Position numbers and translations under genes: made by a program. 64,000 nt of DNA from Alphaproteobacteria bacterium (GTDB lineage: Bacteria; Pseudomonadota; Alphaproteobacteria; Sphingomonadales; Emcibacteraceae). A model generated the notes under the pieces. That model saw only the letters and a program-made list of their open reading frames with translations, had not been told where the DNA came from and ran no database searches. Below are positions 7,347-39,351 of the stretch, piece by piece. The DNA is taken from contig JAUIDN010000002.1 in assembly GCA_030428615.1 (NCBI GenBank), forward strand, positions 62,001 to 126,000. Direction: 5' to 3'. Numbering within the stretch: the stretch's first letter is position 1; each line of letters opens with the position of its first letter.

Positions 7347-8249
7347 TTAAACGGTATCTTTATCGTAATAAAGGCGCACAACGTGTTCCGCTTCCGCAAA
7401 AAACAGCCATCGCTCTGCCATCATTCCAACAAAACAGATTAGAAGTATTAACGATGCTGCTGGCAGACCGATATAAAGCAGCAAAGCGGGTATTATAAAA
7501 CCACACCCCAGAGCAAACCACCGCATAATCGCGCGACGCCCGGGTGCGAGTTCATAGCCCATTTCCCGCTGCAGATAATTTTTTTGACTGTGTGCCGGCT
7601 CAAACGGGGTGGCTTTCCCGAAATCGGTAAGTCCCAGTGCGCTTTCACGCGTATACTGACCACGGTGCCGGTCAATATTTATCCATGTCGCAATTTTTAC
7701 AATCAAAGCGGCAATTAATAGGTAGACTACAATCATATGATGTTGCCAGCCCGCAACCACAATATAAGCCACACCACCACTGGAGAGCGCATAAATCTGG
7801 TACCCAAGAATGACCCAATTATTATGCCAGGCGGGTATCGCTTTAAGTGACGCATAAATCATGCTCGTTGTGTATATCGTTAAAACTGAGCTGATTAAAC
7901 CAAGTACCGCCACCAGATTAACAAAATTTTCAAACCCAAGATCAAAGTAATATTGTCCCGCGATAAACACCATCGGGCCAAAGCAGAAAATCGACATAAT
8001 CCCTTCCCTGCTCAACCATGAGGTGCGCCACTGACTGAAAGCACGCCATGCGCGCTCGGGATGGCCCAGATGAACCGTCGAAGAAACGAGCCCGGTTGCC
8101 ACAAGGATAAATGCCATAACCGACCCAATAACTACATCGTCATCAGCCAGTGGCGTTCCAAGCAATATATTTGCTGTGAGCCAAATGAACAATCCATAGC
8201 CCATTCCTGAAACAGTAGTAAAAATAATCACTGAGAGTGCTGGATGCAT
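7347..8249 (-). CDS. soeC: Membrane anchor subunit of molybdoenzyme, DmsC/SoeC-like
   Basis: This 300-residue integral membrane protein has about eight hydrophobic helices, beginning MHPALSVIIFTTVSGMGYGL. It fits the DmsC/NrfD-like anchor subunits that exchange electrons with quinone. It is the third gene of a tight A-B-C operon read leftward, 4 nt after the iron-sulfur subunit. The symbol depends on the assignment of the catalytic subunit as sulfite dehydrogenase; a DMSO, polysulfide or thiosulfate reductase anchor remains possible. Confidence 0.7.
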   Translation of the reverse strand: MHPALSVIIFTTVSGMGYGLFIWLTANILLGTPLADDDVVIGSVMAFILVATGLVSSTVHLGHPERAWRAFSQWRTSWLSREGIMSIFCFGPMVFIAGQYYFDLGFENFVNLVAVLGLISSVLTIYTTSMIYASLKAIPAWHNNWVILGYQIYALSSGGVAYIVVAGWQHHMIVVYLLIAALIVKIATWINIDRHRGQYTRESALGLTDFGKATPFEPAHSQKNYLQREMGYELAPGRRAIMRWFALGCGFIIPALLLYIGLPAASLILLICFVGMMAERWLFFAEAEHVVRLYYDKDTV

Positions 8250-8253
8250 AGCC

Positions 8254-8985
8254 TTATCCTGTAAAATCCAATGTGGCCCATTTCAGCAGGGCATCTTTGA
8301 CATTTGAAACCTTATGTTCAAGAGACCGGGACTTATGCTGCTCTCTTTTCTTCGGTGGCAGATATTGATTAATCGGCTTGGTTTCCATTTCAGGGAACAA
8401 ATCCCTTGCGTCATTCTCTGCCGCAAGTTTTGACACATTTGAATTCGGATCTGCAAAATCACCAAAATGTCGCGCACCTGCCGGACAAGTGGAAACGCAG
8501 CTTGGCACACGCCTGTCTTCAGGAATGGTTTCATCGTAAATTTTATCAACGCAGAGCGTACATTTTTGCATTACACCACCGGACGTATCATACTCCCTTG
8601 CACCATAAGGGCAGGCCCATGAACATAATTTGCAGCCGATACAAACATCTGGATTAACCAGAACGATACCGTCTTCGGAACGTTTTAATGACGCGCCCGT
8701 CGGGCAAACCGTAACGCACGGGGCGTCTTCACAATGCAAGCAGGATTTGGGAAAATAAACTGTGCGGTCGGCTTCATTCGGTTTTTTAAATTCGTAACTG
8801 TGAATTCGGTTATACCAGACACCGCTTGGATCATCTCCGTATGGCTTAAGGTCTTCCATCGGCCCTGTAATACCGCTTGTATTCCATTCTTTACAATTTA
8901 CAGCGCAGGCGTGACAACCGACACAGATATTCAAATCGATGAGCAATCCCAGTTTTTTGTCTGTTTTTTCCGGAAGACAAGTCAT
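8254..8985 (-). CDS. soeB: Iron-sulfur subunit of molybdoenzyme, SoeB/DmsB-like
   Basis: This 243-residue ferredoxin-like subunit has the cysteine sets of four 4Fe-4S clusters. They are visible as CVGCHACAVNC, CLHCEDAPCVTVC, CIGCKLCSWACPYGA and the later CTLC plus CVSTCPAGA. It carries electrons between the molybdopterin subunit and the membrane anchor. The start overlaps the end of the catalytic subunit gene by 4 nt (8982-8985), and the anchor gene follows after 4 nt. There is no signal peptide, consistent with a cytoplasm-facing complex. Confidence 0.8.
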   Translation of the reverse strand: MTCLPEKTDKKLGLLIDLNICVGCHACAVNCKEWNTSGITGPMEDLKPYGDDPSGVWYNRIHSYEFKKPNEADRTVYFPKSCLHCEDAPCVTVCPTGASLKRSEDGIVLVNPDVCIGCKLCSWACPYGAREYDTSGGVMQKCTLCVDKIYDETIPEDRRVPSCVSTCPAGARHFGDFADPNSNVSKLAAENDARDLFPEMETKPINQYLPPKKREQHKSRSLEHKVSNVKDALLKWATLDFTG

Positions 8986-11858
8986 GATTTTACCTTCTCC
9001 TTAACACCCAGTGACCGTTCCTGCTGCTCAAAGCTTACTTCCTTTTCAAATCCATATCTTAACACTTCCGGCCGTTCATATTTTTCGTAAGACTTAACCG
9101 CATCTATCATGGGTGCCGTGGTTTCGTCCGACTGGTCCTGTGCACGCTCAATTTTAACCCTCGTATCAAACCATGCCCCCTGACCCGTTACGGGGTCCGA
9201 ATTTGATCTCAATTCCCCTTCATCTGTCATGAGGTTTTCCGATATCACATGATTAAGAAGAAACGCTTTTTGGAATTCAGGCGAATTTTGATCAAGCGCC
9301 CATGCACCACGACGTTTTCCAATCGCATTCCAAGTCCACACGGTGTGTTCATTCAAGCCGTCCATATATTTGGCTTGCACTTTAACCTCGCCGTGCGGGC
9401 TTCTTACCCAAACCCAGTCCAAATCATCAATATTTTGCGCTTTTGCCGTTTCAGGATTGATGTAAAGATAATTTTGCGATGTAAGCTGCCTGAGCCAGGC
9501 ATTCTGGCTACCCCATGAATGATACATATGAGCCGGACGCTGCGTCAGTGCGGACAGCGGAAATTCACGACTATTCTTATCAATATGTTCCTGTACCGGA
9601 TACCACGTCGGAACCGGGTTAAAGTATTTTTTAATTCGTTCCCGGGCGTGATCGGGGGGCACATGGTCGCCGTGCCCCTGCGCGGCCAGATTAAATTTTT
9701 GCAGCATTTCATTATAAACATTCAGCACAATCGGCTCCGGCGCACCCATCCAGCCCATCCTGGTCGCGGTTTCAAGATAGGCTTTGTTTGCAAACCGGTA
9801 ATATTGTTCCGCTTCTTCAAGTTCAAATTCCCAGTAGCAGCCATTCTCAATATATTTCTGGAGCTGATTTTTATTGGGAGCACCTTTGCCTTCGCTTTCG
9901 CCGTTTTCACCACGCCATCCGGAAAGGGGGCCAACACCGGGTGCGCGTTCATGATTAGCCAGATAATCGCTATACCCTCCCGGGTAAAGAGCATTGCCAT
10001 CGTCATCAACCATCCCCGGCAGGCCGAGACGCACGCCAAGATCAAGCACCACATCCTGAAAAGGTCTAACATCCCGGTCAGGCTCAAGAACCGGTTGTCT
10101 TATGGAATCGGCCGCCGCTTCCGCCGTGCCAATTGGGCGGTCAAGCATCGAAATTGCGTCCCATCGTTCCAGATAGGTTGTATCCGGCAAAATCAAATCG
10201 GCATAAGGGACGGTTTCCGAATAGAAGGCATCGGAATATATAATATAAGGAATTTTATAATCCCCTGTTTCCGGGTCTTTATCGGTCATATATTTAATGG
10301 CGTTTTTCACATTCATTGATGAATTCCACGCCATATTGGCCATATACATCATCAATACGTCAATCTTATAGGGATCGCCCGCCCACGCGTTATGAAGCGC
10401 CATATGCATCATACCATGAATCGCCAGCGGATATTCCCATGAAAATGCCTTGTCAATCCGAGTTGGTTCGCCCTTTTCATCGACGGCCAAATCTTCCGGC
10501 CCTGATGGGAAGCCAAGCGGCTCCGCGGTTGTGGATTGCATCGGTCCGGCGGAGTGTGTGGCATTTTTTTTGTGGGGCGGCGTTGGCCGTGGAAACGGCG
10601 GTTTATATCGAAATGATCCCGGTCCATCAATGGCACCAAGAAGCATTTGAAGCAAATGGATCATCCGGCACGTTTCGAACCCGTTCTTATGAGCGGCGAT
10701 CCCTCTCATAGCGTGGAAGGATACAGGACGGCCAATAATCCTGTCATGTTTATTGCCGTAGCTGTCTGTCCAAGGAAGGTCGATGACAATTTCCTCGCTA
10801 AACGCCACTTCCGCCATTTCCGCAGCAATACGCTGGATATCATCGGCTGCAATGCCCGTTTCAGCCACAACATTTTCAAGCTTATATTTATCGCCGAAAA
10901 ATTCCTGTACAATATGTTGAAATGCGGGAACCGCTTTAAGACCGTTTTCGACCGAAAACTCACCTGTCATAGCAGGTTTGGAAACGCCAACTTTAATGGG
11001 CGATATTTTATCCAGTGCCAGATCAAAACAAAGCGGTTCGCCATCATCATCACGTACAAACAATCCGTGATCCGGAGAGCCGGGATTATCAATGACCAGC
11101 CAAGGGCTATTGGTATAGCGAATAAGGAAGTCCCAATCGATTTTTTCTGCTTTGAGCAATTCTGCGATCAACGCACCGACAAACAAACCGTCCGTGCCCG
11201 GACGGATGCCAAGCCATTCATCGGCAATCGCCGCATAACCGGATTGAACGGGATTGACAGCAATATATTTTGTGCCCGGACGCGATTTTATCGTGCCGAT
11301 GCCTTTTTTAATCGGGTTTGAATCATGATCTTCAGCAACACCAAACATCATAAAATATTTTGTACTGTGCCAGTCGGGCTCACCGAATTCCCAAAATGAT
11401 CCCCCGATTGTATATAAGCCCGCTGCGGCCATATTAACGGAGCAGAACCCCCCGTGTGCTGCATAGTTATGTGTCCCGAACTTTGCTGAAAACCACCCGG
11501 TTAACGCCTGACTTTGGTCGCGCCCGGTGAAGAATGCCAAGCGCTTGGGGTCGTTTTCACGAACTATCCTTAATTTTTCAGTAGCGATCTCCATCGCTTC
11601 GTCCCAGGAAATTTCCTCAAACTCGCCACTTCCGCGCGGGCCGACCCGCTTCAGTGGCGATGTCAGTCTTGCCGGCGAGTAATGCTGCATAATACCCGCA
11701 GACCCCTTTGCGCAAAGGACACCCTTATTCACCGGATGATCGGGATTTCCTTCAATATATTTTATTCGGCCATCTTTTAGATGAACGTTGATGCCGCAAC
11801 GACACGCACACATATAGCATGTTGTTGTTTTCATGTTGGTATTGTTTTGTTTTTGCAT
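8982..11858 (-). CDS. soeA: Molybdopterin oxidoreductase catalytic subunit, probable cytoplasmic sulfite dehydrogenase SoeA
   Basis: This 958-residue bis-MGD oxidoreductase has an N-terminal 4Fe-4S site (Cys14-x2-Cys17-x3-Cys21-x27-Cys49) and the MGD-binding segments HGGFCSVNMAAAG and FGVAEDHDSNP. A C-terminal dinucleotide-binding domain includes LTSQNYLYINPETA. There is no twin-arginine signal, so it should be cytoplasmic. That fits the sulfite-oxidising SoeABC enzymes of purple sulfur bacteria and roseobacters. From memory, the N-terminal sequence resembles roseobacter SoeA, but the substrate assignment is inference. Alternatives are thiosulfate, polysulfide or DMSO reductase. The moaA gene for cofactor synthesis lies 18 kb away. 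Confidence 0.7.
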   Translation of the reverse strand: MQKQNNTNMKTTTCYMCACRCGINVHLKDGRIKYIEGNPDHPVNKGVLCAKGSAGIMQHYSPARLTSPLKRVGPRGSGEFEEISWDEAMEIATEKLRIVRENDPKRLAFFTGRDQSQALTGWFSAKFGTHNYAAHGGFCSVNMAAAGLYTIGGSFWEFGEPDWHSTKYFMMFGVAEDHDSNPIKKGIGTIKSRPGTKYIAVNPVQSGYAAIADEWLGIRPGTDGLFVGALIAELLKAEKIDWDFLIRYTNSPWLVIDNPGSPDHGLFVRDDDGEPLCFDLALDKISPIKVGVSKPAMTGEFSVENGLKAVPAFQHIVQEFFGDKYKLENVVAETGIAADDIQRIAAEMAEVAFSEEIVIDLPWTDSYGNKHDRIIGRPVSFHAMRGIAAHKNGFETCRMIHLLQMLLGAIDGPGSFRYKPPFPRPTPPHKKNATHSAGPMQSTTAEPLGFPSGPEDLAVDEKGEPTRIDKAFSWEYPLAIHGMMHMALHNAWAGDPYKIDVLMMYMANMAWNSSMNVKNAIKYMTDKDPETGDYKIPYIIYSDAFYSETVPYADLILPDTTYLERWDAISMLDRPIGTAEAAADSIRQPVLEPDRDVRPFQDVVLDLGVRLGLPGMVDDDGNALYPGGYSDYLANHERAPGVGPLSGWRGENGESEGKGAPNKNQLQKYIENGCYWEFELEEAEQYYRFANKAYLETATRMGWMGAPEPIVLNVYNEMLQKFNLAAQGHGDHVPPDHARERIKKYFNPVPTWYPVQEHIDKNSREFPLSALTQRPAHMYHSWGSQNAWLRQLTSQNYLYINPETAKAQNIDDLDWVWVRSPHGEVKVQAKYMDGLNEHTVWTWNAIGKRRGAWALDQNSPEFQKAFLLNHVISENLMTDEGELRSNSDPVTGQGAWFDTRVKIERAQDQSDETTAPMIDAVKSYEKYERPEVLRYGFEKEVSFEQQERSLGVKEKVKS

Positions 11859-31102: not shown

Positions 31103-32734
31103 ATGACTAAGACAGAAAATTCAAAAATGGCCGGCCCTCACGCGACAGGGATGACAAAAAGATCTTTTTTGCAATCCGTCGGTATGATCGGCGGCACCGC
31201 AGCCGTTATGACAGCAATGCAGGGATGGGATATTGGATTTGCTTCTGAAATGGACCGCCCTCCACAAATGTCAACGGACGGTAACGGTAAAAAAGTTATT
31301 ATTCTGGGAGCTGGTCTTGCGGGAATGGTACTGGCCTATGAAATGAGCAAAAAGGGCTATAACTGCAAAATTATTGAAGCTCTTCATTATGCCGGCGGAC
31401 GCTGTGTATCTGCACGTAAAGGATCCATTATCGAGGAAATTGACGGGCAGAAACAGGTTTGTAATTTCCGTGATGGCAACTATATAAATTATGGTCCCTG
31501 GCGTATACCAGCGGAACACAAATCAACAATTTATTACTGCCGGACGCTAGGTGTCCCGCTTGAAGTTATGGTCAATAAATCAGGTAAGGCCTACTATTAT
31601 TATGAAAATAAAGAAGGCCCGTTTAAAGGCCAGCCTATCCGTCAGGAAGAAGCCGATGTGGACTTTAAAGGATACACAACAGAACTTCTTGCCAAAGTCG
31701 CCGATCAGGGTGCACTGGATGAGCTAATTACCCAGGAAGATAAAGAAAAACTGCTCGAGCACCTTAAATCATCCGGATTGATTGATAGCAAAGACTTGAA
31801 CTACCGGGCAAACCGGGCACGCGGACACAAATCTTATCCCGGCGCCGGTATGAATTTTGGGGAACTTTCCGACCCGTTCTCAATGGCAGATACATTCAGC
31901 GTAAGGCAGGCGAGCCGAAACGAAACCGCGGATCACCCGGCCGTCATGTTCCAGGCCGTTGGCGGAATGGATCAGATCGCACAAGGCCTTAAGCGAGCAT
32001 TGAGTGACGAGAGTATCGTTTATAATTCTGAAGTAACCGACATCATTCAAAATGAAAACGAAGTCAAAGTCACTTATAAGAATACAAAATCAGGTGCGGT
32101 GAGCACTGAAAATTGTGATTATGTAATATCAACAGCACCGCTAGGCGTAATGGCAAACATCAATACCAACCTTAGCGAAGAATTCCAAACTGCCCTGAAA
32201 GCAACCAGAAGCAATCCTGCCTGTAAAATTGGTGTTGAAATGAACCGCCGATTCTGGGAACAGGATGATATGATCTACGGTGGCGTAACAAACACTGATA
32301 TAGAGGGCCAACGCGTCCTGAGTTATCCATCAGGAAATCTGTTCGGTGCTGCACATGGTGATACTGGTGTCATTCTTGGTTATTATCCGATTGGCGGCTC
32401 GTCCGTTCCTGTCAGTAACTTAACTATATCGGAACGCATTGAATTTGCGCTTTCCGCCGGTGAAAAAATCCATCCCGGGAATTACAGAAATCACTTTACG
32501 GGTGAAGCGATGTCAGTGGCCTGGCATAAAATGAAATATGCACTCGCCGGTTGGGAAAACTGGTCACGCCGGGGTCGCACCCGCTCCTTCCCTGTTATGC
32601 AGAAAGGTGACAAACGCATATTTGTATCCGGTAATATTGCATCACCAGCCCTAGGCGGGTGGATGGCAGGCGCTATCGAAGGCGCGTGGTCAACGATGGA
32701 AGTCATCGATAAACGCGTCGCCGAGCAGGCTTAA
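31103..32734 (+). CDS. Exported flavin-containing amine oxidase / L-amino-acid oxidase family protein
   Basis: This 543-residue flavoprotein has a Tat-like leader (MTKRSFLQSVGMIGG, with Lys-Arg in place of Arg-Arg) and an ADP-binding fold with GAGLAGMVLAYEMSKKG then EALHYAGGRC. At the C-terminus GNIASPALGGWMAGAIEGAW covers the flavin and substrate site. Such enzymes oxidise amines or amino acids to imines. The immediate downstream genes encode an exported cytochrome c and two exported RidA proteins. This suggests that it works in the periplasm and may pass electrons to the cytochrome instead of oxygen. The substrate is unknown. Confidence 0.85.
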   Translation: MTKTENSKMAGPHATGMTKRSFLQSVGMIGGTAAVMTAMQGWDIGFASEMDRPPQMSTDGNGKKVIILGAGLAGMVLAYEMSKKGYNCKIIEALHYAGGRCVSARKGSIIEEIDGQKQVCNFRDGNYINYGPWRIPAEHKSTIYYCRTLGVPLEVMVNKSGKAYYYYENKEGPFKGQPIRQEEADVDFKGYTTELLAKVADQGALDELITQEDKEKLLEHLKSSGLIDSKDLNYRANRARGHKSYPGAGMNFGELSDPFSMADTFSVRQASRNETADHPAVMFQAVGGMDQIAQGLKRALSDESIVYNSEVTDIIQNENEVKVTYKNTKSGAVSTENCDYVISTAPLGVMANINTNLSEEFQTALKATRSNPACKIGVEMNRRFWEQDDMIYGGVTNTDIEGQRVLSYPSGNLFGAAHGDTGVILGYYPIGGSSVPVSNLTISERIEFALSAGEKIHPGNYRNHFTGEAMSVAWHKMKYALAGWENWSRRGRTRSFPVMQKGDKRIFVSGNIASPALGGWMAGAIEGAWSTMEVIDKRVAEQA

Positions 32735-32826
32735 CGACGCATCATAGAGGACATAATGTCGTCACAAACTTTTAAAATACTTAAAAGTGTGTAATGATTA
32801 AATAAAACAACATAGTGTGGTTAAAA

Positions 32827-33228
32827 ATGAAAAAAATAATTCATGTTATAATAGCTTTAGTGGGGTTTTCAGCTTTATTTTCTGCGGCGTACGCACAAGA
32901 CTACCTGGAAGAAGGGGAGCAAATTTACGTCGATTTTTGTGAAGCCTGCCACCAACCGGGTGGCGAAGGATTTGAAGACATATACCCGGCGCTGAAAGAT
33001 AATGAGTTTGTCTTGGGTGATAAGGAAGAGGTGATCTATCTATTGCTCGAGGGCCGTGCAGGCATGCCAACATTTATTGCCGATCTGGAAGTAGACCAAC
33101 TTACGACAATCATCAATTATATCCGCAACAGTTGGGGTAATGATGGCGGCGAGGTTACTCAGGAAGAAGTTGACGAGGCGTATGAATTTATCGCTGAAGA
33201 AGATGACGGCTTCGGACCGGGCAACTAG
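32827..33228 (+). CDS. Exported small c-type cytochrome
   Basis: This protein of about 133 residues has a signal peptide ending AAYAQ. A single haem domain carries CEACH and the likely axial methionine in AGMPTF. A strongly acidic tail follows (DEAYEFIAEEDDGFG). It is a periplasmic monohaem cytochrome. The gene lies 92 nt behind the amine oxidase gene and in front of two RidA genes, so it is the likely electron acceptor of the oxidase. The frame is open from a GTG at 32815; the ATG at 32827 is preferred because it gives a cleaner signal peptide. Confidence 0.85.
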   Translation: MKKIIHVIIALVGFSALFSAAYAQDYLEEGEQIYVDFCEACHQPGGEGFEDIYPALKDNEFVLGDKEEVIYLLLEGRAGMPTFIADLEVDQLTTIINYIRNSWGNDGGEVTQEEVDEAYEFIAEEDDGFGPGN

Positions 33229-33246
33229 GGTCTTATTTTTGGAAAA

Positions 33247-33281
33247 TTTCGTACCGATTTCGACCGGAAATCGTTGCGAAA
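33247..33281 (+). promoter_or_regulatory. Intercistronic hairpin between cytochrome and RidA genes
   Basis: CGATTTC (33255-33261) and GAAATCG (33267-33273) form a perfect stem. It is extended by TTTCG/CGAAA (33247-33251 and 33277-33281) across a 3x3 internal loop. No T run follows, so an mRNA-stabilising or processing element is more likely than a terminator. Confidence 0.4.
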
Positions 33282-33355
33282 ATAAAAGAATCCTTTAAGC
33301 TAGCCACCAGCGGCATTCACGAAATGCTGAACGAAAAATTCCAAGGGAGAAAATC

Positions 33356-33874
33356 ATGTCCAAACTCGTTAAATTTGCTGCTGCGCTAGTTATCAGTGGT
33401 GTTGTAACCCTCACAGCCCATGCACAAATGATCGAAAGAACAAGCCAGGGGTTTCTTGATCCGGGAATTGTAATTCCTGCTGGCGCTGAAACCTTTTATA
33501 TGAGTGGTAAAGGGAACCATGCGTGGGGCGAAGGCTGCATGACACGTGAAGAACGCGCGGCAAAAGGTGACGCATGTCAACCCGGCGATATGTATGAACA
33601 GGGAAAAGCTGTTTTTGAGTCCTTCAAAACCCAACTCGAAGAAGCCGGCTGGTCTCTTAGTGATGTTGTCATGCTTCGCATTTATGGTGTGCCGGGTGAA
33701 GATGGCAAAGTGGATTCTGCCGCGTTCAATAAAGCGTACCGCGAATATTTCGGTGCAGAATCAAAAAGTGGTAACACAAATCTACCGTCACGTACATTCG
33801 TAGGTATCCACTCTCTTGTGGTGCCAGGATGGTTGGTTGAAGTGGAAGCTCGCGCCATTCGTATGCCAAAATAG
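33356..33874 (+). CDS. Exported RidA-family protein, first copy
   Basis: This 172-residue protein has a signal peptide ending LTAHAQ, then a Rid/YjgF domain. Aligned by eye with E. coli RidA, the Arg of PSRTFVGIHSL matches catalytic Arg105, and the first Glu of LVEVEARA matches Glu120. RidA proteins hydrolyse reactive enamines and imines. Compared with cytosolic RidA it carries a cysteine-containing insert near CMTREERAAKGDAC, which could form a disulfide. A strong GGGAGAAAATC site precedes the start. It is third in the amine oxidase operon. Confidence 0.85.
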   Translation: MSKLVKFAAALVISGVVTLTAHAQMIERTSQGFLDPGIVIPAGAETFYMSGKGNHAWGEGCMTREERAAKGDACQPGDMYEQGKAVFESFKTQLEEAGWSLSDVVMLRIYGVPGEDGKVDSAAFNKAYREYFGAESKSGNTNLPSRTFVGIHSLVVPGWLVEVEARAIRMPK

Positions 33875-33895
33875 GTAATTCCAAAGGAGAAAATA

Positions 33896-34405
33896 ATGAC
33901 AAAATTACTAAAAATTATTACTGCCGTTGCTGTTGGCGCAGTTGCCACGTTTGTTGCTTCCAGCGCAAATGCACAGAATGCTGCTATCAAGCGAAATGAC
34001 GAAGGCCGCCATTTCTATTCAACTATTGAGGTTCCAGCACATGCCGATCAGCTTTTTGTCAGTGGTAAAGGGCCTGCGCAAAAAGATCCGGACGCAGAGG
34101 GTGTTGCCCGATTTGGCAGTACTGAAGAACAGGCCCGTAGTACTTTTAAAAGAATTAAGGAATCTATTGAAGCCGCTGGCTGGAGCATGAGCGATATTGT
34201 AATGGTTCGTGTATATTTGGTCGCAGATCCTGAAATGGGTAAAATGGATTTTGATGGCTTCAACACAGCATACCGTGAAGTCTTCGGTACAGAAGAACAA
34301 CCCAACAAACCTGTTCGTGCCGTCGTTGAAGTCGCTGGACTTGCTGTTCCGGGATGGTTGATCGAAGTTGACGTTCGCGGCGCAAGAATGCCGGCTCAAA
34401 ATTAA
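33896..34405 (+). CDS. Exported RidA-family protein, second copy
   Basis: This 169-residue protein has a signal peptide ending SSANAQ and a Rid domain similar to its upstream neighbour. The Arg105 equivalent lies in VRAVVEVAGL and the Glu120 equivalent in LIEVDVRG. It lacks the cysteine insert of the first copy. AAAGGAG precedes the ATG by a good distance, and only 21 nt separate the two genes. Two copies may form a heterotrimer or act on different imines. A terminator follows. Confidence 0.85.
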   Translation: MTKLLKIITAVAVGAVATFVASSANAQNAAIKRNDEGRHFYSTIEVPAHADQLFVSGKGPAQKDPDAEGVARFGSTEEQARSTFKRIKESIEAAGWSMSDIVMVRVYLVADPEMGKMDFDGFNTAYREVFGTEEQPNKPVRAVVEVAGLAVPGWLIEVDVRGARMPAQN

Positions 34406-34430: not shown

Positions 34431-34462
34431 AAAAGGCGCTGGTAACAATCAGCGCCTTTTTT
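34431..34462 (+). terminator. Rho-independent terminator ending the amine oxidase operon
   Basis: AAAAGGCGCT (34431-34440) and AGCGCCTTTT (34451-34460) form a perfect 10-bp stem with a 10-nt loop and continue into further T residues. The A run on the left side also lets it serve the convergent lipoprotein gene. Confidence 0.88.
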
Positions 34463-35741
34463 ATGGGCTCATCCATTGAAAAAATTCAACTGTATAGCCC
34501 CCCGGATCCCGAATGAGAAATGCGCGAATGGGCGCCGTCGTGCTGTTATAAATTTCATGCTCTATTTTTATATTCTTTGCGTTTAAGATAGCCCCGTACC
34601 AGTCGTCCACTGCATCTGACACGATGCTAACCATGACCGCGCTGTCTTTGTTTGGTTTATGAAATCCACCTTCGCTATCTTTAACCACCCCTATAAACGC
34701 ACTGTTGGTCAGTTTATAGATTTTGACCCACTCATCATCATACGTGGCTTCGAGCTGCAGGTCCTTACTATAAAAATCAACCGCCTTGTCCCAATCATCG
34801 GCGTTATAGTAAAGCATGGTTATTTGCTCATTAATTTTTGGAAGATCCATGGTTCCTTTTAAACTCCTGTCTGTTTGTCCCTTGTCCATTTGCACAGGTA
34901 GTGGTGTACAGTCAAGACCGTCAACATTTTCGCCGGACGTACTAAAATCGAGAAACGATGTTGATGCATATGTGGCAATCGTCGGTACATTGCCCACATA
35001 ATTGGTATCCATAACCGCATGCTCAACGGAAACCTGATATGCTTCACCGGGGTTAAAAAGGTCTTTGCTGATGGTCACTTGCTTATCTGCATATGTCAGA
35101 TGTTCGCCGCCGCCAAAGGGAACGCCGCTGTGTGAAATTTTTTCCCCTTTACAGTTTCCAACCACAGCGAAAATCAGATCATCAACAAATCCGTTTTCGT
35201 CCGGCCCACCTTCAGTAAAAGGTGTCCACGATATAACAAGGTCCTGATCCGGGTCTATTCCGGTTGCGGAAACTTGGTTTCCATTCTGGCTAAGGGTGAT
35301 AATCGGTGATGCGGGAATGCGTGTTTTTCCGTCATCCTTTTTTGACAGCACTACGGGGATATTGAGCGTTTGACCGTTTTCTTCCGTGTATGTAAACATA
35401 TATTCACCGTTCGGATAAAGCGCATCAAGATCGGCTTCATTGTTATAGCGCCCGCCATGTGTCTCAAGCACAGACGGGTGGTCGGCAAATTTCATTTGAT
35501 CAATGCCCGGGTTGTTTAAGGTCCCGTCCGTGACATGCCCGCCGTCCTTCACAAAGATTTCAGCAAAAAAATGATAATTTAACAGGTCCTGTGATCCGGA
35601 AGCATCCTGGCGATAATTAGCCGTCTTCCCAATCACAAGGAATTGTGTGTCGGCGCTGTTAATGTCATCACTTTGCGCACATGCATTAAGCGCCAATAAC
35701 GGAAAAATTAACAGAAAGGCCAGCCAGTTTTTTATCATCAT
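34461..35741 (-). CDS. Lipoprotein with C-terminal glyoxalase/VOC domain
   Basis: This 426-residue protein has a lipoprotein signal peptide with the lipobox LNAC near residue 20. A beta-rich N-terminal region (about 30-290) of unrecognised family follows. The C-terminal VOC (glyoxalase/bleomycin-resistance) domain runs from about 310, with ITMLYYNADDWDKAVDFYSK and ending FLIRDPGGYTVEFFQW. VOC domains are usually cytosolic metal-dependent enzymes, so a membrane-anchored, exported one is unusual. It is convergent with the amine oxidase operon. Confidence 0.7.
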   Translation of the reverse strand: MMIKNWLAFLLIFPLLALNACAQSDDINSADTQFLVIGKTANYRQDASGSQDLLNYHFFAEIFVKDGGHVTDGTLNNPGIDQMKFADHPSVLETHGGRYNNEADLDALYPNGEYMFTYTEENGQTLNIPVVLSKKDDGKTRIPASPIITLSQNGNQVSATGIDPDQDLVISWTPFTEGGPDENGFVDDLIFAVVGNCKGEKISHSGVPFGGGEHLTYADKQVTISKDLFNPGEAYQVSVEHAVMDTNYVGNVPTIATYASTSFLDFSTSGENVDGLDCTPLPVQMDKGQTDRSLKGTMDLPKINEQITMLYYNADDWDKAVDFYSKDLQLEATYDDEWVKIYKLTNSAFIGVVKDSEGGFHKPNKDSAVMVSIVSDAVDDWYGAILNAKNIKIEHEIYNSTTAPIRAFLIRDPGGYTVEFFQWMSP

Positions 35742-35812: not shown

Positions 35813-37240
35813 ATGACAAGGCCGATGACGAAAACTTCAAAAGAAATGGTGGATAGCGCCAATCAGGAAATAAAAACAATCACCGTTGAGGAAGCCAAGC
35901 TTGCCCTGAATGATCCTGCGACAACATTTGTCGATCTTCGTGATATCCGCGAAATACAGGCCGAAGGAATGATCCCCGGCGCTTATCATATGCCCCGCGG
36001 GATGACCGAATTCTGGGTTGATCCGCAGAGCCCGTACTATAAGAAAGTCTTTTCTTCGGATAACAAATTCGTTTTTTATTGCAACAAGGGATGGCGCAGC
36101 GCACTCGCGGCAAAGGCGGCGCAGGATGTCGGCCTTGGCAATTTGTGTCATGTGGAGGGCGGTTTTACGGCATGGCAGGAAACGGGCGGTGAGATTGCAC
36201 AGAAACCGCAGCATAAATCCCCCGCGCAAAAAGAAGGGATTTACGACCTGTTGCCGTTTGTGGTTAATCCACAAAATATCGCACGGTTTGAAGACGGCAA
36301 CGTCATCATCGGCGATCGGCGCAAATACCCCTTCTCCAAGGAATTTGTGACCTGCGGTACGGTGGAGGACGTGGCGCAGGCGATCAAGGACATGGTGACG
36401 CAGGGAAGCGGGCCGTGGATGGCGGCGGCAAATGCACTGCGGATTGTTGCCGGGGATGGCATGGATGCGCTTCGGGCGGCGCGGGAAACACTGGTGGCGA
36501 CCCGGCCGACAAATACGGCGATGGCGCTGAGGCTGGATGATATTCTGGAGACTGCGGAAACGGCAGAAAAGCTGGGGCAGGATGTGGACGAGGCGATTGC
36601 AAACAGGATCAAGGCAATCCAGAACAAGATTTATGATAATTATGCGATCCGGGCGCGGGCGGTGGCGGATCTGATAGAGGATGGCGACGGCATTCTGACG
36701 ATGTGTTTCGGTGAGGCGGGCTTCTTGCTGGCGCTGGCACTTGCAGGCCGTGACGGCAAAAAAATAACATGTTACGCCCCCGAAACGAGGCCTTATTTAC
36801 AAGGGGCAAAGCTGACCGCCCCGTCAATCCACGAAATGGGGATCGAAGTGAAGCTGATCACCGACAACATGCCGGCCCATATCATGCGCGAAGGCAATAT
36901 CCAGAAATATATCACCGCCGCCGACCTGATCACCGTTGACGGGCATGTGTGCAACAAGATCGGCACCTACCAGAACGCGATTGCCGCGCATGCGCACGAT
37001 ATCCCCTATTTCGCGTTCGCATGGGGGCGCGACGATCACAAAGTGAGCCGCGATGACGTGCAGATCGAGGAGCGCGACCCCGCGGAAATCAGACAGGCCC
37101 TGGGACAGCCCACAACCATCGACGAAATCGGCGCCCGCTACCCGACGTTCGATATCACCCCGCCCAAATATGTGTCCGGCGTGGCGACCGTCCACGGGGT
37201 CTTAAGCCCCTACACATTAAAAAATTACAAAGAATGGTAG
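35813..37240 (+). CDS. Rhodanese domain fused to MtnA-like (eIF2B-related) sugar-phosphate isomerase
   Basis: This 475-residue fusion has a rhodanese domain (about 20-140) whose active-site loop is CNKGWRS. An MtnA/eIF2B-like isomerase domain (about 155-470) follows with CYAPETRPYLQGAKLTA, a Cys in ILTMCFGEAG and an Asp in AADLITVDGHVCNKIGTYQ. These align with the catalytic Cys and Asp of methylthioribose-1-phosphate isomerase, though the neighbouring residues differ (CFGEAG for CNTG). Followed by MTA phosphorylase and an O-acetylhomoserine sulfhydrylase-like gene, it probably acts in methylthioadenosine salvage. The start may be 12 nt later (35825). Confidence 0.8.
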   Translation: MTRPMTKTSKEMVDSANQEIKTITVEEAKLALNDPATTFVDLRDIREIQAEGMIPGAYHMPRGMTEFWVDPQSPYYKKVFSSDNKFVFYCNKGWRSALAAKAAQDVGLGNLCHVEGGFTAWQETGGEIAQKPQHKSPAQKEGIYDLLPFVVNPQNIARFEDGNVIIGDRRKYPFSKEFVTCGTVEDVAQAIKDMVTQGSGPWMAAANALRIVAGDGMDALRAARETLVATRPTNTAMALRLDDILETAETAEKLGQDVDEAIANRIKAIQNKIYDNYAIRARAVADLIEDGDGILTMCFGEAGFLLALALAGRDGKKITCYAPETRPYLQGAKLTAPSIHEMGIEVKLITDNMPAHIMREGNIQKYITAADLITVDGHVCNKIGTYQNAIAAHAHDIPYFAFAWGRDDHKVSRDDVQIEERDPAEIRQALGQPTTIDEIGARYPTFDITPPKYVSGVATVHGVLSPYTLKNYKEW

Positions 37241-37253
37241 GAGGAGAACCCGC

Positions 37254-38006
37254 ATGACCGTAGCGATTATGGGCGGTACCGGTATTTATAACCTGCCGGG
37301 GATTAAGGTAACGGAAAAACGGGTGAGAAACGCGTATGGCGACGCGGTCGTGTATCTGGGCCAAGGGGACTATGACGATGTTATCTTCCTGACCCGGCAC
37401 GGGGTCGACCACACCACCCCGCCCCACAAGGTCAATTACCGCGCCAATTTAAAGGCATTAAAGGATCTGGGCGTGACCCGCATCATGGCGACCTATGCGG
37501 TCGGCGCAATCACCACCGGATACCCGGTTATGGAGCTTGCGGTGCTGCGGGATTTTCTTGATTTCACATCGGGGCGCGAGACCAGTTTTTTTGATACCAT
37601 CGAACGCGGCATCGGACACGTGGAAATGAGCAAGCCTTACTGCCCGGTGATGAGCGCCAAAACAATCGAGCTTGGCCCCGCCCACGGCATCGGCGTCAAT
37701 GACGGTGCGACCTATGTAGCGACCAACGGTCCGCGCTTTGAAAGCCCGGCGGAGATTAAAATGTATCAGATGCTCGGCGGTGATGTGGTCGGCATGACCG
37801 GATGCCCGGAAGTGTATCTTGCCGGGGAGCTGGGCATGGCGTTTGCGGCCGTGGCGCTGCCCATTAACCTTGCGGCGGGGCTTGAGGAAAATATCACCAT
37901 CCACGAAGGGAATATCGATATGGTGCGCGAAAAAATGGTCCGGTTGATGCTTGATGTGCTGAAAAACACATCGGATGAGGACTGTAAACCGCCATTGTTG
38001 CTGTGA
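37254..38006 (+). CDS. S-methyl-5'-thioadenosine phosphorylase family (MTAP/PNP)
   Basis: This 250-residue phosphorylase begins MTVAIMGGTGIYNLPG and has FLTRHGVDHTTPPHKVNYRANL (phosphate site), TNGPRFESPAEIKMY and DVVGMTGCPEVYLA, the MTAP/PNP hallmarks. It converts methylthioadenosine plus phosphate to adenine and methylthioribose-1-phosphate, or acts on purine nucleosides. GGAGGAG lies just before the ATG. The gene sits 13 nt after the isomerase fusion, so product and substrate pass directly between the two. Confidence 0.87.
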   Translation: MTVAIMGGTGIYNLPGIKVTEKRVRNAYGDAVVYLGQGDYDDVIFLTRHGVDHTTPPHKVNYRANLKALKDLGVTRIMATYAVGAITTGYPVMELAVLRDFLDFTSGRETSFFDTIERGIGHVEMSKPYCPVMSAKTIELGPAHGIGVNDGATYVATNGPRFESPAEIKMYQMLGGDVVGMTGCPEVYLAGELGMAFAAVALPINLAAGLEENITIHEGNIDMVREKMVRLMLDVLKNTSDEDCKPPLLL

Positions 38007-38073
38007 TGCCACCAACCCATTTTCAAAAAATTAAAAATAATAACATAAAAACAAAGACTTAAGGATCAAAAGA

Positions 38074-39351
38074 ATGAGTAACGATAAAGACAAAAATAAA
38101 AGCAAAGTAAAACCCGGCTACGGCATGGGTACAATCGTTAATCATGTCGGCGAAGGGTCACATGATCTTCATTCCCACCTGATGCCGATTTATCAGACAT
38201 CAACATTCGGGTTTGACACGGTCGATGACGCGGCGGATGTGTTCGCGGGCCGGGTCAAGGGCTATGCCTATACCCGCACCCATAACCCGAATTTTGACCA
38301 TCTGGCCGATAAAATCGCCTATATGGAAGGGGTCGACCTGCTACGCGCGAACCCGGACAAGGAACCATCCGAAATCGTGATGGGCAAGGTCACATCATCG
38401 GGCATGGCCGCGACATCGGCGGCGGTGCTGGCGCATGTGGGGTCCGGGGACAAGGTCATTGTGCAACAGGGGCTTTACGGTAATACCCATAAATTCTGGT
38501 ATGCGCTTGCCCCGCGGCTGGGGATTGAGGTGATTTGGGTCACCGATTTAACCCCATCGGGCCTTGAGCAGGCGATTGATGAAAACCGCGATGCCAAACT
38601 TGTTTTTGTTGAGACACCGTCAAACCCGCGTATGGAGCTTATTGATCTTCGCCATTTGGCGGAAGCGGCCCACAAACACGGTATCTGGGTGATGGTCGAT
38701 AACACATTTGCGACCCCGTATCATCAACGGCCATTAACGCTTGGCTGCGATGTGGTGGTTCATTCCACCACCAAATATATCTGCGGCCACGGCACCACCA
38801 TCGGCGGGGCGATTGTCAGCACCCATCTTGATTATATGTCGCCGGGGGGTTCCGGTGTCGGGCTTACCTATAAAATGCTGGGGGTGGCGCCCAGCCCGCA
38901 GGACGCATGGCAGATTAATGTCGGGCTTAAAACATTCGAGCTTCGCATGCAGCGCCACAGCAAAAATGCCATGGCGGTTGCCACATTCCTGCAATCCCAT
39001 GACAAGGTGGAGGAAGTGTGTTACCCCGGACTTGGCAATGACCCGTTCCATCAGCTTGCCAAAAAGCAGATGATCAACGGATATGGCGGCATGGTGTCGT
39101 TTAAGGTAAAGGGCGGCGCGGAAAACGGGATTGCCTTCACCAATGCGGTGACGATCCCGACATTGGCGGTGTCGCTTGGCAATGTGGATACGCTTATTCA
39201 GCACCCGGCGAGCATGACCCACGCCGCCATCCCGCAGGCCGAACGCGAAGCCGCCGGCATTACCGATAATATCATCCGTCTTTCGGTCGGGATTGAAAAT
39301 GTCGAAGACCTGATTGCCGATTTTGACAGGGCGTTTGAGGTGGTAAAATAA
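38074..39351 (+). CDS. Cys/Met metabolism PLP enzyme, O-acetylhomoserine sulfhydrylase or methionine gamma-lyase like
   Basis: This 425-residue, fold-type I PLP enzyme has GLYGNTHKFW, the aspartate site MVDNTFATPYHQRP, the PLP lysine in HSTTKYICGHGTTIGG and a C-terminal RLSVGIENVEDLI. Family members form or split C-S bonds of homocysteine, methionine or O-acetylhomoserine. Behind the MtnP and MtnA genes, a role in capturing methanethiol or sulfide into methionine is plausible; the reverse gamma-lyase reaction cannot be excluded. AAGGA precedes the ATG. Confidence 0.8.
   Translation: MSNDKDKNKSKVKPGYGMGTIVNHVGEGSHDLHSHLMPIYQTSTFGFDTVDDAADVFAGRVKGYAYTRTHNPNFDHLADKIAYMEGVDLLRANPDKEPSEIVMGKVTSSGMAATSAAVLAHVGSGDKVIVQQGLYGNTHKFWYALAPRLGIEVIWVTDLTPSGLEQAIDENRDAKLVFVETPSNPRMELIDLRHLAEAAHKHGIWVMVDNTFATPYHQRPLTLGCDVVVHSTTKYICGHGTTIGGAIVSTHLDYMSPGGSGVGLTYKMLGVAPSPQDAWQINVGLKTFELRMQRHSKNAMAVATFLQSHDKVEEVCYPGLGNDPFHQLAKKQMINGYGGMVSFKVKGGAENGIAFTNAVTIPTLAVSLGNVDTLIQHPASMTHAAIPQAEREAAGITDNIIRLSVGIENVEDLIADFDRAFEVVK

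Follow-up and report, generated by a model that had tools for sequence, protein, structure and literature searches.

The window analysed here is a 64,000-nucleotide stretch from the genome of a marine alphaproteobacterium assigned to the Emcibacteraceae (assembly GCA_030428615.1, contig JAUIDN010000002.1, positions 62,001 to 126,000). It contains four consecutive plus-strand genes, at 31103-34405, that encode a flavoprotein related to L-amino-acid oxidases (LAAOs), a small cytochrome c and two Rid-family proteins that we call Rid-1 and Rid-2 (Table 1). Open reading frames and Pfam matches confirm this arrangement, which a first-pass annotation made from the letters alone had described as a periplasmic amine-oxidising module closed by one strong terminator. 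The genes are separated by 92, 127 and 21 nucleotides, in that order, and an alternative start is possible for the cytochrome at a GTG at 32815. The terminator was likewise confirmed: the 70 nucleotides that include it fold at -21.2 kcal/mol (z = -4.3); the hairpin is absent from the list returned by a simple pattern scan. Ten orthologous loci in the genus, counting the window's own, retain the block, so it is not a product of chance.

Table 1. The four-gene block and its terminator, with the positions of further LAAO genes in the same genome
Feature	Coordinates	Strand	Size or structure	Pfam match
LAAO flavoprotein (Amino_oxidase fold), Tat-like KR signal peptide	31103-32734	+	543 aa	PF01593 3e-42
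Mono-haem cytochrome c (CEACH), Sec signal peptide	32827-33228	+	133 aa from ATG	PF13442 (Cytochrome_CBB3) 1e-10
Rid-1, exported Rid-family protein with lineage-specific insert	33356-33874	+	172 aa	PF01042 (Ribonuc_L-PSP) 1e-12
Rid-2, exported Rid3-like putative imine deaminase	33896-34405	+	169 aa	PF01042 (Ribonuc_L-PSP) 5e-18
Hairpin terminator, end of putative operon	34431-34460	+	13-pair stem and U-run	
LAAO paralogue array	L017:6923-15303 = C14:66919-75296		five tandem copies	
Single LAAO paralogue	L018:6831-8447 (C1)			

Sequence and predicted structure place the flavoprotein in the LAAO branch of the flavin amine oxidoreductases (FAOs). By sequence, its top PDB match is the LAAO of Rhodococcus opacus (2jae, E 1e-80), which shares its fold and substrate-binding residues and also matches its predicted structure (Foldseek E 1.4e-44; mean predicted local distance difference test score, or pLDDT, 77.7). 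The first 47 fold matches of the model are amino-acid oxidases, with monoamine oxidase ranking after them. In snake LAAO the substrate carboxylate is bound by Arg90. The equivalent residue here, R134, is kept in 68 of 68 relatives, as is K375, the equivalent of Lys326; Y428, the equivalent of Tyr372, is kept in 64 of the 68, and W520 is also conserved in the alignment of relatives. Since LAAO folds lead the matches and the Arg, Lys and Tyr residues are conserved, the substrate is most likely an L-amino acid and not a simple amine. The first-pass annotation had left the choice between amine and amino-acid oxidase open; the flavin oxidase fold stands, and the amine part of that label gives way to the LAAO branch on the strength of the top 47 fold matches and the Arg/Tyr pair.

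The export signals claimed for all four genes are borne out by the sequences, which support a Tat-like route for the flavoprotein and a Sec-type route for the other three products. The LAAO N-terminus reads TKRSFLQSVGMIGGTAAVM, in which KRSFL and the hydrophobic region that follows align with the RR motifs of relatives. Most relatives outside the genus have RR at this position; the window enzyme has KR, a weaker consensus, as do the LAAOs of the genus at loci L001-L007 and L023-L031. RR does occur in other proteins exported by this organism, M19 dipeptidases and pyridoxal phosphate (PLP) enzymes, and the genome encodes TatC. By inspection, the Sec-type signals end in AYA-QD for the cytochrome, AHA-QM for Rid-1 and ANA-QN for Rid-2, and both Rid signals are conserved in the genus. 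Exported and non-exported LAAOs could not be told apart by a simple hydrophobicity score.

Conservation was followed within the genus, where the closely related genomes are metagenome assemblies that carry the label Emcibacteraceae or Kordiimonadaceae, and well beyond it. All ten orthologous genus loci keep LAAO, cytochrome c and Rid-2, with the cytochrome gene adjoining LAAO in each; Rid-1 is missing from three (L027, L029 and L031). Synteny in the genus covers the region as a whole, and the neighbourhood there is thus by itself no proof of function. Among 387 alphaproteobacterial genomes, this LAAO type (E<=1e-40) occurs in 24 and a relative of Rid-2 (E<=1e-12) in 14, spread over ten genera. 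The two occur together in 13 genomes (hypergeometric 6e-17, for genomes that are not independent of one another), 12 of which carry them within 5 kb and the last on different contigs. This Rid type is linked in a dedicated way to this LAAO type. A Pseudomonadota-wide sample showed the trio of LAAO, cytochrome c and exported Rid outside the Alphaproteobacteria as well. The search for the four-gene neighbourhood across the class that the first-pass annotation had proposed thus found the gene set conserved far beyond the genus, and the lack of conservation that this annotation named as evidence against itself did not turn up. There is one departure: in the neighbourhoods read around relatives from outside the genus, one Rid lies beside LAAO, and this, with the three genus loci that lack Rid-1, indicates that the second Rid counted as part of the set is not essential to it.

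Closely similar gene sets have been described before, and the statement in the first-pass annotation that no pathway with this composition was known is wrong. In the plant-associated nitrogen fixer Gluconacetobacter diazotrophicus PAL5 a lao-cccA-ridA cluster (GDI2456-2454) is needed to turn tryptophan into indole-pyruvate (PMC5053998). A Tn5 insertion in lao (GDI2456) lowered the lao, cccA and ridA transcripts, abolished indole-3-acetic acid (IAA) and left tryptophan unused, ccm mutants made 5% of wild-type auxin, and the study put forward the cytochrome and RidA as helpers of LAAO (PMC5053998). The quantitative PCR primers of that study translate into YPSHGYF/QVIHPNY (lao), AIYQHV/NYVRSH (cccA) and ASTIYL/KLGKID (ridA). 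The window proteins have the matching motifs YPSGNLF/IHPGNY, NYIR and EMGKMD at codons that are identical or close in number (404 versus 408 and 447 versus 456 for lao, 108 versus 97 for cccA, 113 versus 113 for ridA). As far as these primer-encoded motifs reach, the comparison supports homology of the window genes to GDI2456, GDI2455 and GDI2454. The two clusters agree in their three gene types, in gene order and in having a Tat-exported LAAO, and the position of the ridA motif implies an N-terminal extension like that of the window Rid; the G. diazotrophicus cluster differs in having one ridA where the window has two Rid genes. Its product was shown to feed indole-3-pyruvate and IAA. A periplasmic LAAO with a Rid partner has also been described in Chlamydomonas (PMC5053998, PMC10805672).

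A second line of work bears on the electron acceptor. Akram et al. (2025) found by kinetics that many Tat-exported FAOs with an adjacent cytochrome c are dehydrogenases that prefer the cytochrome over O2 (PMC12224317). NicA2, Pnao and the relatives treated there resemble the window pair in that a Tat-exported enzyme of FAO fold lies next to a Sec-exported cytochrome c; they differ in that the study began from NicA2 and the window enzyme lies on the LAAO branch. LAAOs, Rid and G. diazotrophicus go unmentioned in the text of that study.

To place the window enzyme we used a tree of 68 LAAO relatives and two references, in which it falls in a clade of 44 members with support 1.0. Cytochrome c lies in the LAAO locus read, usually within 1.5 kb, in 27 of the 28 clade members from outside the genus, against 3 of 24 in the remainder of the tree. 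Parsimony requires five changes of this neighbour state, which points to few evolutionary events and not to many independent ones. R. opacus LAAO, for all its similarity to the window enzyme, lies outside the cytochrome-linked clade. Two loci from one genus, L121 and L122, carry an LAAO-Rid pair with no nearby cytochrome c, a Rid without a signal peptide, and an LAAO signal that contains charged residues and looks damaged. This pattern is suggestive of a possible joint relocation to the cytosol, and would then form a natural control, albeit one that represents a single event.

The cytochrome is thus the probable electron acceptor, as judged from gene neighbourhoods and from studied relatives, and the first-pass view of the flavoenzyme as a dehydrogenase that feeds the cytochrome is supported as the best reading by the clade-wide adjacency, the FAO kinetics (PMC12224317) and the ccm mutants (PMC5053998). 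The most serious alternative is that the enzyme is a conventional periplasmic oxidase that passes electrons to O2 and yields H2O2, with the cytochrome a mere neighbour or a scavenger of peroxide. Its nearest solved relative is indeed an oxidase, K375 corresponds to the lysine conserved close to flavin N5 in oxidases, and in the half of the tree to which R. opacus LAAO belongs, most relatives have no cytochrome. Adjacency in nearly all non-genus members of the window's own clade is hard to square with this alternative, as are the mostly poor activity with O2 of tested FAOs that have a Tat signal and an adjacent cytochrome c (PMC12224317) and the loss of auxin production in ccm mutants of G. diazotrophicus (PMC5053998), and we regard it as unlikely.

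Both Rid proteins were said at first reading to retain the equivalents of Arg105 and Glu120, and they do: R146 and E162 in Rid-1, R141 and E157 in Rid-2, with R146 and E162 forming invariant columns of the Rid alignment. Among solved structures, the nearest to both are PFL_1385 and PSPTO_3006, which belong to the Rid3 subfamily in the naming of PMC5619798. Rid-2 matches PFL1385 (9bkc) at E 4e-29 and PSPTO3006 (9bka) at E 1.7e-23, and Rid-1 matches PFL1385 at E 1.7e-12. These Rid3 proteins clear the imines that LAAO makes from Leu, Gln, Phe, Met and His (PMC5619798). They share the catalytic Arg with the window Rids, and PFL1385 resembles them further in having an N-terminal extension that looks like a signal peptide; export of Rid3 proteins is not discussed in PMC5619798. 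Rid-1 differs from them in being more divergent and in carrying an insert with two cysteines, C61 and C74, present in 5 of 5 aligned orthologues. The pair may suit a periplasmic disulfide, and the model of Rid-1 (mean pLDDT 61.8) is too poor for judging it. A Rid next to an amino-acid dehydrogenase has a precedent in principle in DadY of Pseudomonas aeruginosa (PMC9714295). The kept catalytic residues and the activity of the nearest solved relatives on LAAO-made imines therefore support the imine-hydrolase role initially assigned to the two proteins.

The Rids could instead stabilise or assemble LAAO without deaminating imines. The Chlamydomonas LAAO is described, in the account given in PMC5053998, as a periplasmic complex in which one subunit is catalytic and the other, Rid-like, is not, and the unusual two-cysteine insert of Rid-1 would fit such a function. 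Retention of the catalytic Arg and Glu in both copies and the activity of the closest solved relatives on LAAO-generated imines (PMC5619798) make this improbable. Still harder to sustain is the idea that the substrate is a non-amino-acid amine, as for the nicotine enzymes NicA2 and Pnao, with the Rids hydrolysing some other imine or enamine: the superfamily includes cytochrome-c-coupled amine dehydrogenases (PMC12224317) and the Agrobacterium S33 nicotine cluster has a Rid gene (PMC7688666), but the Arg/Tyr carboxylate clamp is conserved, amino-acid oxidases take the first 47 places among the fold matches and genetic evidence has the G. diazotrophicus relative acting on tryptophan (PMC5053998).

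Altogether we consider it likely that the block is a periplasmic, cytochrome-c-coupled L-amino-acid dehydrogenase module with dedicated imine deaminases. We envision that a Tat-exported flavin adenine dinucleotide enzyme of LAAO type would oxidise L-amino acids in the periplasm, and that its reduced flavin would pass electrons mainly to the exported cytochrome c encoded beside it, rather than to O2, with the cytochrome handing them on to the respiratory chain. The released 2-imino acid would be hydrolysed to keto acid and ammonium by the exported Rid3-type Rids, and both products could then be used.

Several observations pull the other way. The closest relative of known structure, R. opacus LAAO, is regarded as an oxidase that uses O2. 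The Tat motif of the window enzyme has KR and not RR, and the 92 nucleotides between the LAAO and cytochrome genes sit less well with the putative co-transcription. The genome encodes six further LAAO paralogues (49-56% identity to the window enzyme), five head-to-tail in tandem on contig C14 and one on contig C1, all with KR Tat-like signals and all sister to the window enzyme in the clade formed by the genus; no relative of the window cytochrome or Rids was found within the stretches read around these six, and the enzyme type can thus apparently work without adjacent partners. Among the PDB matches of the window LAAO at E<=1e-3 no chain is named NicA2, the query from which the FAOs of PMC12224317 came. 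Finally, the literature searched yielded no kinetics for any protein of the LAAO-cytochrome clade.

The main idea of such a module was already proposed in 2016, and the window is a well-supported further example and not a new kind of system. What is new is the second Rid with its two-cysteine insert, the breadth of the module, and a cytochrome-linked LAAO clade for which no kinetics were found in the literature searched. With somewhat less confidence, we lean towards a broader proposal: that the window clade comprises widespread, true L-amino-acid dehydrogenases, apart from the NicA2-related clades, which respire amino acids in the periplasm by way of a cognate cytochrome c and have a dedicated exported imine deaminase, to which the genus added a second, disulfide-bearing Rid and a tandem amplification of LAAO. 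If the cytochrome coupling is true, many annotations of "L-amino-acid oxidase" in Proteobacteria would denote respiratory dehydrogenases that do not have to release peroxide. Deamination in the periplasm would be tied to the electron transport chain, and with it the tryptophan step of bacterial auxin synthesis, and the Rid3 subfamily would gain a specific physiological place, in the periplasm as the partner of one enzyme.

Other genes lie close to the block. A convergent gene at 34461-35741 (-) encodes a lipoprotein whose C-domain is a glyoxalase domain and whose N-domain is uncharacterised. Three copies of this N-domain occur in the genome, each at most about 2.3 kb from a Rid-family gene of a different type, and 0 of the 386 other genomes of the class have it; for this last reason, and because the gene is on the opposite strand and past the terminator, we left it out as a fifth member. 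Beyond it, 35813-39351 holds a row of rhodanese-MtnA-like fusion, methylthioadenosine/methylthioinosine phosphorylase-like and methionine gamma-lyase-like genes. A functional link to these was dropped because the stretch from dnaX to the methylthioadenosine genes is syntenic across the genus wherever contigs reach, which makes their adjacency uninformative.

Elsewhere in the genome, the tandem LAAO array is preceded by two exported M19 dipeptidases and followed by a diaminopropionate ammonia-lyase-like gene. A second locus on contig C14 (L019:6424-7574 and 7913-10821) encodes two exported YjgF/Rid-like proteins (PF14588) and two PLP enzymes whose N-termini are Tat-like; the one that was checked resembles C-S lyases of the PatB family. 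From its sequences this locus is possibly a second periplasmic module that produces and clears enamines, and periplasmic breakdown of amino acids may be a theme of the organism.

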